Assembly: GCF_001748365.1 (NCBI RefSeq)
Contig: NZ_BDHH01000002.1
Span: 293,023-357,022 of the forward strand
Source of the DNA: Fusibacter sp. 3D3
Lineage (GTDB): Bacteria > Bacillota > Clostridia > Peptostreptococcales > Acidaminobacteraceae
Length of the DNA stretch: 64,000 nt
Direction: 5' to 3'
The notes beneath the pieces were generated by a model. It made no database searches, was not told the DNA's origin, and saw nothing but the letters and a program-made list of their open reading frames with translations. The translations under genes and the position numbers were made by a program. This document shows, piece after piece, positions 18,684 to 50,718 of the stretch (positions are counted from its first letter, which is position 1; each line of letters starts with the position of its first letter).

Positions 18684-19001
18684 TCATTCATCATTGTCGA
18701 CATCGTCCGGATTATCATCAAGCCCCTTAATCATATAGATAATTTCATTGGGTTTGACCATCTTCAATTTTTCTCTTGCAATCTTTTCGACTGCCTCAGT
18801 CGTTTGTGCGTACTCTAAATCATCTTGAAGGCGCTCAATATCATCTTCAAGTGCATTAATTTCTTGATTTAGCTCACTTTGATTGGCTTGATATTCTTTT
18901 AACTTAATGTCGGTTATATACATGCTATACACAAAATATACGACAAAAATGATCAAAACAATGATCAAAAGACTATTTCTTCTAAAAAATTTTTTAGCCA
19001 T
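18684..19001 (-). CDS. divIC: Septum formation initiator, DivIC/FtsB-like
   Basis: A 105-residue bitopic membrane protein: a basic cytoplasmic start (MAKKFFRRN), one membrane helix (about 10-28), a coiled coil with heptads of Leu, Ile and acidic residues (about 32-75) and a short C-terminal domain with EKIAREKLKMVKPNE. This is the DivIC/FtsB plan; the protein would join FtsL and DivIB in the divisome. The ATG at 19001 is 6 bases after AGGTG; the GTG three codons earlier overlaps that site. In Bacillus yabP and yabQ lie between rqcP and divIC; here their place holds only a 148-bp repeat. Confidence 0.9.
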   Translation of the reverse strand: MAKKFFRRNSLLIIVLIIFVVYFVYSMYITDIKLKEYQANQSELNQEINALEDDIERLQDDLEYAQTTEAVEKIAREKLKMVKPNEIIYMIKGLDDNPDDVDNDE

Positions 19002-19063
19002 CACAAACACCTATATCACTTGAATTGAATATCAAGTGATTTCCTTAAAGTTTTTACAACTTA

Positions 19064-19211
19064 ATCAAAGCGTATACTCAGTCCGCTTCGCTACCTTCGT
19101 AACACTTGCACAATCCTATCGGATTGCATTCAGTGGGCGTTTAGACTCCCACTGAATTAGGCATATGAACCCCCACTTTGAGAAGTGAGGGACATCTCCT
19201 CAAGGGTTATA
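19064..19211. repeat. 148-bp intergenic repeat, copy 1
   Basis: It is identical in length to the copy at 49915-50062 and differs at four positions with no gaps. It contains several inverted repeats: an 8 to 9-bp stem in the CCCCACTT region at its right end, a TTCAGTGGG/CCCACTGAA stem and a CAATCC/GGATTG stem. It starts 10 bases after the rqcP stop and carries no open frame of note. It resembles a non-autonomous IS200/IS605-type or other palindrome-rich mobile element, but no transposase is in view. Confidence 0.85.
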
Positions 19212-19221
19212 TTCCTAAAAA

Positions 19222-19485
19222 TCAAAGATTTTCAATTTTTTCTTCTGATAAGATCTCGTAAAGTTCTTTAGCGAGTTCTTTTTTAACATGCTCTTCTAAT
19301 GCTGTTATTCTAAAATTTATTTTTCTATTTCCAAAAGTTATGATTACCTCGTCGCCAACAGCGACTTCAGCACTCGCTTTAATTATTTTCCCATTTACGC
19401 TTACACGACCTTGGTCGCAAGCTTCTTTTGCGATTGTTCGCCGCTTGATAAGTCTTGCATTTTTTAAGTATTTATCGATTCTCAT
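19222..19485 (-). CDS. rqcP: S4-domain RNA-binding protein RqcP (YabO)
   Basis: An 87-residue S4-domain protein: MRIDKYLKNARLIKRRTIAKEAC followed by GRVSVNGKIIKAS is the standard S4 fold entry. Homologues (Bacillus YabO/RqcP, E. coli Hsp15) bind the peptidyl-tRNA-obstructed 50S subunit; RqcP works with RqcH in alanine tailing of stalled nascent chains. The ATG at 19485 has GGAGG 6 bases upstream; a TTG two codons earlier touches that site and is rejected. Its position between hup and divIC is the conserved one. Confidence 0.92.
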   Translation of the reverse strand: MRIDKYLKNARLIKRRTIAKEACDQGRVSVNGKIIKASAEVAVGDEVIITFGNRKINFRITALEEHVKKELAKELYEILSEEKIENL

Positions 19486-19491
19486 GGACAA

Positions 19492-48339: not shown

Positions 48340-49890
48340 CTATTGTAATGGGGAGACTAATCTGCCCAAAGCTTCTAACACTTTATTTGTAAATGGCCTC
48401 TTTTTAAAATGATCCCATATAAATTCGTTGCATTCAGTCAGATCCTTTACAAAATCTTCTTCCAACCGTATAATCGTCGGCACATCGTAAATAAAGGCAT
48501 TCACTTCAAAGTTGATTTCAAGGGATCGAATATCTAGATTTGTGGTACCAACCGTTGCCGACAAACGATCTACAATCATAATTTTCGAATGTATAAATCC
48601 ATTTTTATATTGATATATTTTGACGCCAGCCTCAAGCAAGGTTTCAATATTGGATTGAGATGCCCAGTACACAAAAAAGTGATCTGGTTGTGAAGGAATA
48701 ATAATGCGCACATCTACACCACTTAAAGCTGCGGTCTTTAGGCCCATCATCAAACTCTCTTCTGGAACAAGATAGGGCGTTGTAATCCATATTTTATCAG
48801 TGGCAGATGCCATCATCTTATAAAAAGCTTGCAAGATAGCCTGCCATTCAGAATCTGGTCCCGAAGCAACCACTTGCATCAAGGCTTGTTTGTGAATGGC
48901 ATGTTCAGGGAAGTAATCCGCGCCATCGATTAATTGCTTGGCTACATAATTCCAGTCATTTAAAAATATAGTTTGAAGTGCATAAACAGCCTCACCTTTT
49001 ATTTCTAGATGTGTATCTCTCCAGAAATCAAATCGATCTGATTTTCCAAGGTATTCATCACCAATGTTTAATCCACCCACAAAACCAACCGTGCCATCGA
49101 CCACGACAATCTTTCTATGATTTCTGTAATTTAGATCTCTTGAAAAAAGTGGAAAGGCAACCGGAAAAAATGGATAAACCTCTACCCCCGCTTTTTTAAG
49201 GCTTTCAATATAATACTTAGAAAGTCTAAACGAACCGACTGCGTCATATATAATTCTGACCTTAACGCCTTTTTTGGCCTTTTCAATGAGCAATCTTCGG
49301 ATATCATTTCCAATCTGATCATCTTTAATGATAAAGTACTCAATGTGTATATGCGCCTTCGCGCGCTCTATACACCCGACTAAGCGACTGAATTTGCTCA
49401 TGCCATTTGTAAGTACATTAATTTCATTATTAAGGGAAAACGGCGCCTTCGCGTTGGTTAAAAGGAGTTGCATGAGGCGTTTATTATGTGCATTTTTACT
49501 GTTAGGTAAATCGATATAATCAATTAGGCCTTGTTGAACTTTTGCAGCATGTGACAATCGATCTGAATCGCTTAGATGTTTACTTTTAGAAAGCGATTTT
49601 TTACGATAACTTCTTCCAAAGAGAATATAACACAAAAAACCGAGCAAGGGAATCAGTGTTAACACGAGTAGCCAAGCCACTGTACGAGAAGGATTCTTAT
49701 TCTCTAAAAATATCACGATGGCAATCCACAGGATATTAATTCTAAATAACCAGTATATCGTATTAAAGGCGATTTCAATATATCTATTTTGATTTGCATG
49801 TTGAGCCAGCCAATAATAGCCAAGCCATAAAGAGCCCGTGACTAAAAGAGTCAATAGAATGATCAAAACCCGCCTAATTAAACGTTCCAT
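48340..49890 (-). CDS. cls: Cardiolipin synthase
   Basis: A 516-residue phospholipase D-superfamily enzyme that condenses two phosphatidylglycerol molecules. Two N-terminal membrane helices plus a third hydrophobic segment precede the catalytic domain. Both HKD motifs are intact: HRKIVVVD from H258 and HSKIMIVD from H434, each with downstream Gly-Gly/Thr-Asn positions. Full length for the Firmicute family. A 148-bp repeat lies immediately upstream (49915-50062), so its promoter may lie in or near the repeat. Confidence 0.94.
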   Translation of the reverse strand: MERLIRRVLIILLTLLVTGSLWLGYYWLAQHANQNRYIEIAFNTIYWLFRINILWIAIVIFLENKNPSRTVAWLLVLTLIPLLGFLCYILFGRSYRKKSLSKSKHLSDSDRLSHAAKVQQGLIDYIDLPNSKNAHNKRLMQLLLTNAKAPFSLNNEINVLTNGMSKFSRLVGCIERAKAHIHIEYFIIKDDQIGNDIRRLLIEKAKKGVKVRIIYDAVGSFRLSKYYIESLKKAGVEVYPFFPVAFPLFSRDLNYRNHRKIVVVDGTVGFVGGLNIGDEYLGKSDRFDFWRDTHLEIKGEAVYALQTIFLNDWNYVAKQLIDGADYFPEHAIHKQALMQVVASGPDSEWQAILQAFYKMMASATDKIWITTPYLVPEESLMMGLKTAALSGVDVRIIIPSQPDHFFVYWASQSNIETLLEAGVKIYQYKNGFIHSKIMIVDRLSATVGTTNLDIRSLEINFEVNAFIYDVPTIIRLEEDFVKDLTECNEFIWDHFKKRPFTNKVLEALGRLVSPLQ

Positions 49891-49914: not shown

Positions 49915-50062
49915 ATCAAAGCATATACTCAGTCCGCTTCGCTACCTTCGTAACACTTGCACAATCCTATCGGATTGCATTCAGTGGGCGTTTGGACTCC
50001 CACTGAATTAGGAATATGAACCCCCACTTTGAGAAGTGGGGGACATCTCCTCAAGGGTTATA
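49915..50062. repeat. 148-bp intergenic repeat, copy 2
   Basis: This is the second copy of the element at 19064-19211. Differences are limited to four substitutions. One restores a perfect CCCCCACTT-n4-AAGTGGGGG stem here (GAGG in copy 1). It starts 5 bases after the trmB stop on the minus strand and ends 24 bases before cls. Both copies follow a minus-strand stop codon and have the same orientation. Confidence 0.85.
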
Positions 50063-50067
50063 ATATC

Positions 50068-50718
50068 TCAATTCCTAAATTTGGCTTCAACACGATAGAT
50101 GAGAAAACCTTTTTTAGAAAATTTTTCTTCATACTCTGTCATGATATTTTCAAGATCATTTTGTGAATGTAGATCAAGTGCTATATTTTTCATAATCATA
50201 TCTAGTGCACAAAACTCGTTGAGAGAAAACTCAAACAAGGCTTGGTTGTCCGTTTTAAAATGAATCCAACCGTCTTCTTTAAGAACAGATTGGTATTTTT
50301 TCATAAAATCTCTATAAGTTAAACGTCTTTTATAATGCCTTTTTTTAGGCCAAGGATCGCTAAAGTTCAAATAAATCCTCGAGAGCTCATCTGCGTCAAA
50401 AAAATTATTGACCTCATTCAAATCAATCATAATCATTTTTAGATTAGGCAATTTCACTTTAGCTGCATGTTGAGCGGCTTTTAAAATGACTTCAGTGATC
50501 ACATCTATCATGATAAAATTGACATCTGGATGACGCTTTGCCATTTCAATAATAAATCGACCTTTTCCACCACCAAATTCCGCATGAATCTCATGATCAT
50601 TTCCAAAGACTTCATGCCACTTACTCTTCTTGCTTGCTGGGTCTACCACAAAAACTTGATCATAAGTAACCAACTCTTCGAACGCCCCTTTTATTTTTCT
50701 GACTCTCACTTTATACAC
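50068..50718 (-). CDS. trmB: tRNA (guanine-N7)-methyltransferase
   Basis: A 216-residue SAM-dependent Rossmann methyltransferase that modifies G46 of tRNA. Motifs: the glycine-rich GGGKGRFI SAM loop, FIMIDVITEV, and the family signature NFSDPWPKKRHYKRRLT, followed by FKTDNQALFE. Length is standard. An extended -10 (TGCTATAAT) lies 17 bases upstream after the pyrE terminator. It is the first gene before the repeat and cls. Confidence 0.95.
   Translation of the reverse strand: MYKVRVRKIKGAFEELVTYDQVFVVDPASKKSKWHEVFGNDHEIHAEFGGGKGRFIIEMAKRHPDVNFIMIDVITEVILKAAQHAAKVKLPNLKMIMIDLNEVNNFFDADELSRIYLNFSDPWPKKRHYKRRLTYRDFMKKYQSVLKEDGWIHFKTDNQALFEFSLNEFCALDMIMKNIALDLHSQNDLENIMTEYEEKFSKKGFLIYRVEAKFRN

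Follow-up and report, generated by a model that had tools for sequence, protein, structure and literature searches.

A transposase-less 143-bp repeat family in Fusibacter, very probably mobile by an IS200/IS605-type single-strand route

Introduction

Palindrome-associated transposable elements (PATEs) have been described in Haloquadratum (PMC3119063), with one in Halanaerobium (PMC7290912). Going by the available sections of these accounts, PATEs are without terminal inverted repeats, carry palindromes near their ends, insert with no target duplication, are too short for a transposase and occur in many copies (PMC3119063, PMC7290912), and the Fusibacter repeat described here resembles them in each respect. 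Some of the described PATEs are recognisable deleted IS605 elements, whereas the Fusibacter element is without a found parent, and its multi-branched covarying fold, core arrays and orthologous retention do not feature in those sections. The IS200/IS605 elements IS608 and ISDra2, as covered in the sections available, also insert 3' of a short target without duplication and have subterminal hairpins (PMC7290912, PMC6006769), and both target the lagging strand (PMC6006769); the Fusibacter element differs in having neither tnpA nor tnpB.

Two further systems overlap with it in part, to the extent that the available excerpts describe them. REP sequences and BIMEs with their RAYT/TnpA_REP proteins are likewise intergenic palindromes with tandem clusters and Y1 enzymes (PMC3733652, PMC6006769); the Fusibacter element is longer, has two fixed ends and TATAA as its target, and flanks no RAYT gene. 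Pneumococcal BOX elements are similarly modular, their inner modules being tandem and variable in number; they fold when transcribed and lie near genes (PMC3049150). The discussion of BOX there involves terminal inverted repeats and an ISSpn2-like transposase, whereas the Fusibacter element has no such repeats. The literature on Fusibacter with MITE, repeat or insertion sequence, searched mostly outside subscription journals, gave no account of this repeat.

Results

Two copies in the window

The window is the whole 64,000-nucleotide stretch of Fusibacter sp. 3D3 DNA analysed here. A sequence-only reading of it had picked out a palindrome-rich 148-bp repeat in two near-identical copies of like orientation, each starting shortly after a minus-strand stop codon, and these observations were confirmed. 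Direct comparison of 19064-19211 with 49915-50062 gave 144 of 148 equal positions without gaps, the mismatches falling at 19072, 19143, 19162 and 19188 in first-copy numbering, and the orientation is alike in both. On the minus strand the 5' start lies 10 bases past the stop codon of an rqcP-like gene in copy 1 and 5 bases past that of trmB in copy 2. The flanks of the two copies are unrelated, so they do not belong to a larger duplicated block. The first 5 of the 148 bases (TATAA, minus strand) are the insertion target and the mobile unit is the remaining 143 bp, which is too short for a transposase and contains no ORF. Support for the copy 1 unit comes from no fewer than 40 similar genomic copies, with its ends set by empty sites and junctions elsewhere.

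19064..19206, minus strand: mobile unit copy 1, 143 bp, CCCTTGAGG...CTTTGAT, between the rqcP-like gene and divIC
19207..19211, minus strand: target pentanucleotide TATAA, 5' of copy 1; TATAA precedes 65 of 77 scored genome copies
19064..19074, minus strand: right-end tail of copy 1, TACGCTTTGAT; its final 8 bases, GCTTTGAT, are found in 62 of 81 scored copies
19222..19491, minus strand: upstream gene of copy 1, S4 domain, rqcP-like (PF01479, E 1.3e-13)
18684..19010, minus strand: downstream gene of copy 1, DivIC (PF04977, E 2.4e-14)
49915..50057, minus strand: mobile unit copy 2, 143 bp, between trmB and a cardiolipin-synthase-like gene; empty site in the F. ferrireducens trmB-cls gap
50058..50062, minus strand: target TATAA of copy 2; in F. 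ferrireducens TTATTCTAA is joined straight to GACCACTCAA
49926..49952, minus strand: 27-nt core of copy 2 (pattern match at 49926)
50068..50718, minus strand: upstream gene of copy 2, tRNA methyltransferase of the trmB type (PF02390, E 3.1e-42)
48340..49890, minus strand: downstream gene of copy 2, PLD family, cardiolipin-synthase-like (PF13091, E 6.7e-47)

Family size and distribution

The element is present in over a hundred places of this Fusibacter genome (G000; 5.11 Mb, 57 contigs). The 148-bp repeat was found in at least 40 places at 95-100% identity, and its 3' core, searched as GGTAGYGAAGCGGACTGAGTA with at most two mismatches, at 178 sites, a count that takes in tandem units; the reversed control pattern gave 0. 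With these numbers the window repeat is not a chance resemblance, and the genome-wide count that the sequence-only reading had called for returned a dispersed family of many copies, not only the two in the window. A search with the 5' module gave 81 sites, and all six that were read had the 3' core with a few more mismatches. Some copies keep the 3' end only; retro-type 5' truncation is not claimed from this, as the list had been compiled from the 3' core and is therefore biased.

The search covered 61 genomes, this one and 60 relatives. Fusibacter ferrireducens (G002) has 39 core sites and the core was absent from the other 59 relatives. A covariance model agreed in placing the family in 2 of the 61 genomes, with 54 matches in G000, a figure that covers the 54 candidates scored, and 39 in G002. 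A scan of named genomes yielded ten stretches, all from Fusibacter ferrireducens Q10-2, and no copy was found in the plasmid and phage collections searched. A prophage-like (viral) contig holds a copy at L199:2050-2200 (minus strand), upstream of an amidase-like gene.

Ends, target and empty sites

Read on the minus strand, the unit begins with CCCTTGAGG and ends with CTTTGAT, directly 3' of TATAA. These ends are not inverted copies of each other, that is, terminal inverted repeats are absent. The 143-bp unit follows TATAA directly on its 3' side, and insertion neither duplicates the target nor removes a base. One copy, C11, interrupts the tnpB of a resident IS605, and the intact IS605 copy provides the empty site TATAACTTTTGTT, or TATAA/CTTTTGTT with the slash at the joint; the filled site reads TATAA/CCCTTGAGG...CTTTGAT/CTTTTGTT, again with no target duplication. 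The cut point at C11 is ambiguous by one shared C and may lie one base further right. C11 is the only intragenomic empty site complete on both sides; at a second copy, C5, the right end agrees with a clean insertion, the left side being foreign sequence.

The trmB-cls gap of F. ferrireducens is an interspecies empty site of window copy 2, reading ...TTATTCTAA/GACCACTCAA... against ...TATTATAA/element/GACCACTCAA... in the window, a clean insertion with no target duplication. Comparison of the orthologous rqcP-divIC and trmB-cls gaps, which the sequence-only reading had suggested as a check, found both without the element in G002 and in a second relative, G001. The rqcP-divIC joint is not exact because the window gap there has about 50 further bases. 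These bases, about 50 bp downstream of copy 1 within window positions 19000-19063, contain the inverted repeat ATCACTTGAATTGAATATCAAGTGAT, and the same gap in G001 and G002 is without them.

Among the 77 scored G000 copies three follow TTTAA and two follow TTGAT, the latter being another element's end; TATAA precedes two of the four scored G002 copies. Head-to-tail joints, in which a right end meets a left end, occur six times at five loci (two at L102, the others at L067, L170, L243 and L270), for example TTTGAT/CCCTTGAGG at L102, and four of the six are inexact at the joint, by about one base. The six junctions and the empty sites thus give the element the same ends.

Clean insertion 3' of TATAA, fixed ends, the lack of terminal inverted repeats and the lack of an ORF argue for single-strand insertion of the IS200/IS605 type. 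We consider it very probable that the repeat is a transposase-less mobile element of this 'peel and paste' kind, close to the PATEs. An ordinary MITE moved by a DDE transposase and bearing terminal inverted repeats would share the shortness, the AT-rich sites and the many copies. However, its inverted repeats are missing from the ends CCCTTGAGG and CTTTGAT, and the empty sites contradict it in showing no target duplication, which leaves this explanation with hardly any credibility.

Search for a source of transposase

The 3D3 genome has 26 Y1 matches and 13 TnpB matches. The sequence-only reading had proposed looking for a parent TnpA/TnpB element that shares the ends of the repeat, and none was found: no autonomous element with these ends occurs among the resident IS605, the two IS200-like groups and the flanks of two RAYT-like genes, in a comparison that covered the main groups of the 26 Y1 matches rather than every fragment. 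Resident IS605 has the ends TTTAA/CCTAAAAGCC...GTATGTCAC, and the IS200-like elements end in ...GGGTAGTTTTGATT or ...GTTGATGACT, both unlike the element. The likeness is confined to the CCCCCACTT hairpin and a TTTGAT-like end. The CCCCCACTT/AAGTGGGGG hairpin, which had been said to recall IS200/IS605-type elements, is indeed similar to the hairpin at the right end of resident IS605, although the two elements differ at their termini. A locus with a core about 0.8 kb from an IS605 (L105) was considered as parent and rejected, as the IS605 there has the usual ends.

As in PATEs, palindromes lie near both ends (on the left, hairpin 1 starts after about 7 nt; on the right, 11 nt follow the core). 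Since the ends are related to no resident IS200/IS605 element able to supply TnpA, we term the element PATE-like and not a derivative of a named element; the same mismatch poses the question of the enzyme. The anatomy matches the PATE description, in the section available, in all but a demonstrable parent (PMC3119063), descent from a named element being possible.

Resident IS605 is the best candidate for the enzyme source of the recent burst, because 8 of its 13 copies lie within 1.6 kb of an element against 1.9 expected (0 of 20000 random placements as high). After removal of the two interrupted copies the count is 6 of 11 (p 0.0014), and none of eight IS200 copies lies as near; the element position list used is incomplete, and the C12 site entered it only through its fetched IS605. 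F. ferrireducens has no TnpB match, hence no IS605 of this type, though the element is present, and it has one full IS200-like TnpA. An IS200-like tnpA with an in-frame internal deletion is found in the same species at L232:1401-1795 (plus strand).

The TnpB matches bear on the guide-RNA part of the sequence-only reading, taken here to mean an omega (guide) RNA scaffold for TnpB that stands alone and is dispersed so as to function in trans. The 13 TnpB matches and a conserved 3' end followed by non-repeated sequence are what such a scaffold would show. Yet F. ferrireducens combines 39 core sites with no TnpB match, the right end of the resident TnpB element is unrelated at its terminus where an omega-RNA scaffold would overlap it, and the arrays set cores in tandem with alike spacers. 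We judge a guide RNA most improbable. The guide-RNA part of that reading was thus not borne out, and its mobile-element part stands on the many copies, the clean empty sites 3' of TATAA, the exact junctions and the missing ORF.

Multiplication by a TnpA_REP (RAYT) protein, as for REP/BIME sequences, is also improbable, if less so. Two proteins of the Y1 kind are encoded in the genome, one RAYT-like (L107, 296 aa) and the other Y1-like (L108, 252 aa); a small stem in the core is directly preceded by GTAG, and REPs are described as clustering in tandem in the available part of the literature (PMC3733652). However, neither gene, nor L234 of F. ferrireducens, is flanked by the element, and the 143-bp unit with its two defined ends and TATAA target stands against REPs of 20-40 bp. 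The L108 family extends to G001 (60% identity) and has matches in 29 of the 41 genomes searched, of which almost all are without the element. The RAYT-like gene at L107:1402-2292 (plus strand) is flanked by another palindrome built on GTACCACGTAC, with a few further copies in the genome. The L108 Y1-domain protein (L108:1101-1859, minus strand; orthologs L234 and L297) is syntenic in G000 and G002 and looks to have been kept vertically; it has QYH where an HxH pair is usual. Coupling of this protein to the element, suggested by its presence in G000 and G002 and apparent absence from G001, was rejected when a direct search found it in G001.

Under the IS200/IS605-type reading, a Y1 (HUH) TnpA given in trans would recognise the end-proximal hairpins of a single DNA strand, which could be exposed on the template for lagging-strand synthesis, for instance. 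Its left cut would fall after TATAA and its right cut after CTTTGAT, and the strand would be pasted behind another TATAA. IS200/IS605 elements form right-left junction circles, and the right-left junctions here may be the trace expected of a circular intermediate or of tandem insertion.

Fold and 27-nt core

The fold comprises the following parts in copy 1, with counts of paired cells and two-sided changes from alignment A1.

19202..19208, minus strand: closing stem, 5' strand AACCCTT, pairs with 19101-19107; 94.3% of cells paired
19101..19107, minus strand: closing stem, 3' strand, pairs with 19202-19208
19161..19199, minus strand: hairpin 1, arms CCCTCACTT / AAAGTGGGGG; two-sided changes in 8 of 16 pairs
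19128..19157, minus strand: hairpin 2, ATTCAGTGGG...CCCACTGAAT; two-sided changes in 9 of 11 pairs
19110..19127, minus strand: hairpin 3, GCAATCC-GATA-GGATTGT; two-sided changes in 3 of 7 pairs
19075..19101, minus strand: 27-nt core TACGAAGGTAGCGAAGCGGACTGAGTA, which elsewhere forms tandem arrays as their repeated unit; 178 genome sites

Covariance analysis of the copies, another check proposed by the sequence-only reading, backed the fold strongly. In an alignment of 20 chosen representatives, the model of closing stem, three hairpins and core hairpin (47 pairs) was formed in 92.7% of cells. Two-sided changes occurred in 23 of the 47 pairs against a shuffle mean of 10.3 (sd 2.1), with 0 of 500 shuffles as high, and sliding the partner columns by one to three destroyed the signal. 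The minus-strand reading also folded far better than shuffles both as DNA (z -6.3, -7.3) and as RNA (z -5.1, -5.9). Rfam gave 0 matches in the window, and in seven loci matches below the gathering score only.

Across 173 instances of the core (50 distinct sequences), the loop position varies most, and several of the sequences show joint changes of positions 6 and 22. The core may be an unusual ladder of sheared G.A pairs, TAC-GA-AG-GNA-GC-GNA-GC-GGA-CT-GA-GTA, a shape familiar from work on stable DNA mini-hairpins. This proposal draws on the variation pattern and this known shape, not on energy, because the isolated core folds at 0 kcal/mol in a nearest-neighbour DNA calculation. In full-length folds the core pairs in part with the right-end tail.

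Core arrays and old orthologous copies

Tandem core arrays of three to six cores, in units mostly of 45-75 bp, occur at a number of loci, and the spacers inside one array resemble each other. Of the 17 distinct loci in F. ferrireducens, at least 7 proved, with the elements masked, to have a copy at the orthologous place and in the same orientation in G000, a lower bound since the comparison covered a subset of G000 loci. Several of the orthologous loci hold tandem core arrays. Pair 1 has six cores in each species with unrelated spacers, and in pair 7 a core pair is G-C in one species and A-T in the other. One F. ferrireducens array of six cores (L198, near 1968-2499) lies between what we take, by eye, to be the end of ftsZ and the start of an nrdR-like gene.

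Changes between orthologs were counted in six pairs (243 pair cells) on an alignment fitted to the fold model: 15 were compensatory, 13 one-sided and 18 broken. Shuffles run on the same alignment gave 2.9 compensatory, 18.4 one-sided and 36.5 broken, and 0 of 5000 reached 15. Pair 6 is omitted from the count because its L187 unit diverges too far, as are pair 4's first units, where the L275 unit looks like a newer insertion; these first units on their own gave 2 compensatory, 1 half and 6 broken changes. Gene conversion between copies is a possible source of the compensatory changes, but hairpin 1 of pair 7 is unlike that of most other copies.

Some old copies have apparently stayed where they were, with an intact fold, since the two species diverged, and a role in place is possible; their retention and compensatory change suggest some service to the cell. 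Copies common to both species have kept their fold by compensatory change, the core becoming a tandem array in several. This may reflect selection on copies in residence, possibly through a leader RNA that belongs to the following gene. The sequence-only reading had offered a conserved structured RNA as its alternative, and the compensatory changes fit this; the selected form may be RNA or single-stranded DNA. It is possible, though less likely than not, that a single-strand transposon derivative has been domesticated. Arrayed 27-nt-core copies at several genes would then have been retained since the Fusibacter species split, serving as a folded leader RNA or as a single-stranded DNA site, with sister copies still mobile; their core may be a sheared G.A ladder. 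The family offers dated copies, that is, fresh insertions in one species and orthologous copies with the fold kept since speciation, and these let one ask when and how a selfish single-strand element becomes a useful regulatory structure.

Orientation and strand bias

Orientation was scored at 82 loci from 60 stretches and the window, with ORFs called by length only. In gaps between co-directional genes 45 of 64 copies are sense and 19 antisense, and of nine arrays seven are sense, one antisense and one mixed. This bias, the compensatory change in orthologous copies and the RNA fold scores would suit a cis-acting structured leader RNA kept by selection, with dispersal secondary. Against this, empty sites at the same genes in related species imply that the genes can do without these copies, some IS605 genes are likewise interrupted by the element, no gene function was seen to recur among the contexts read, and the 36 young copies (at least 95% like the consensus) divide into 18 sense, 10 antisense and 8 mixed. 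A leader RNA of this kind is a possible but doubtful explanation of the family. The sense bias was not significantly stronger in older than in younger copies (Fisher p 0.41).

Strand bias is expected for the single-strand mechanism that we prefer, and the bias found is moderate: 55 of the 82 loci follow GC skew, and 9 of 17 in convergent or divergent gaps. Four loci were informative for replication strand versus gene orientation; three follow the skew and one the genes.
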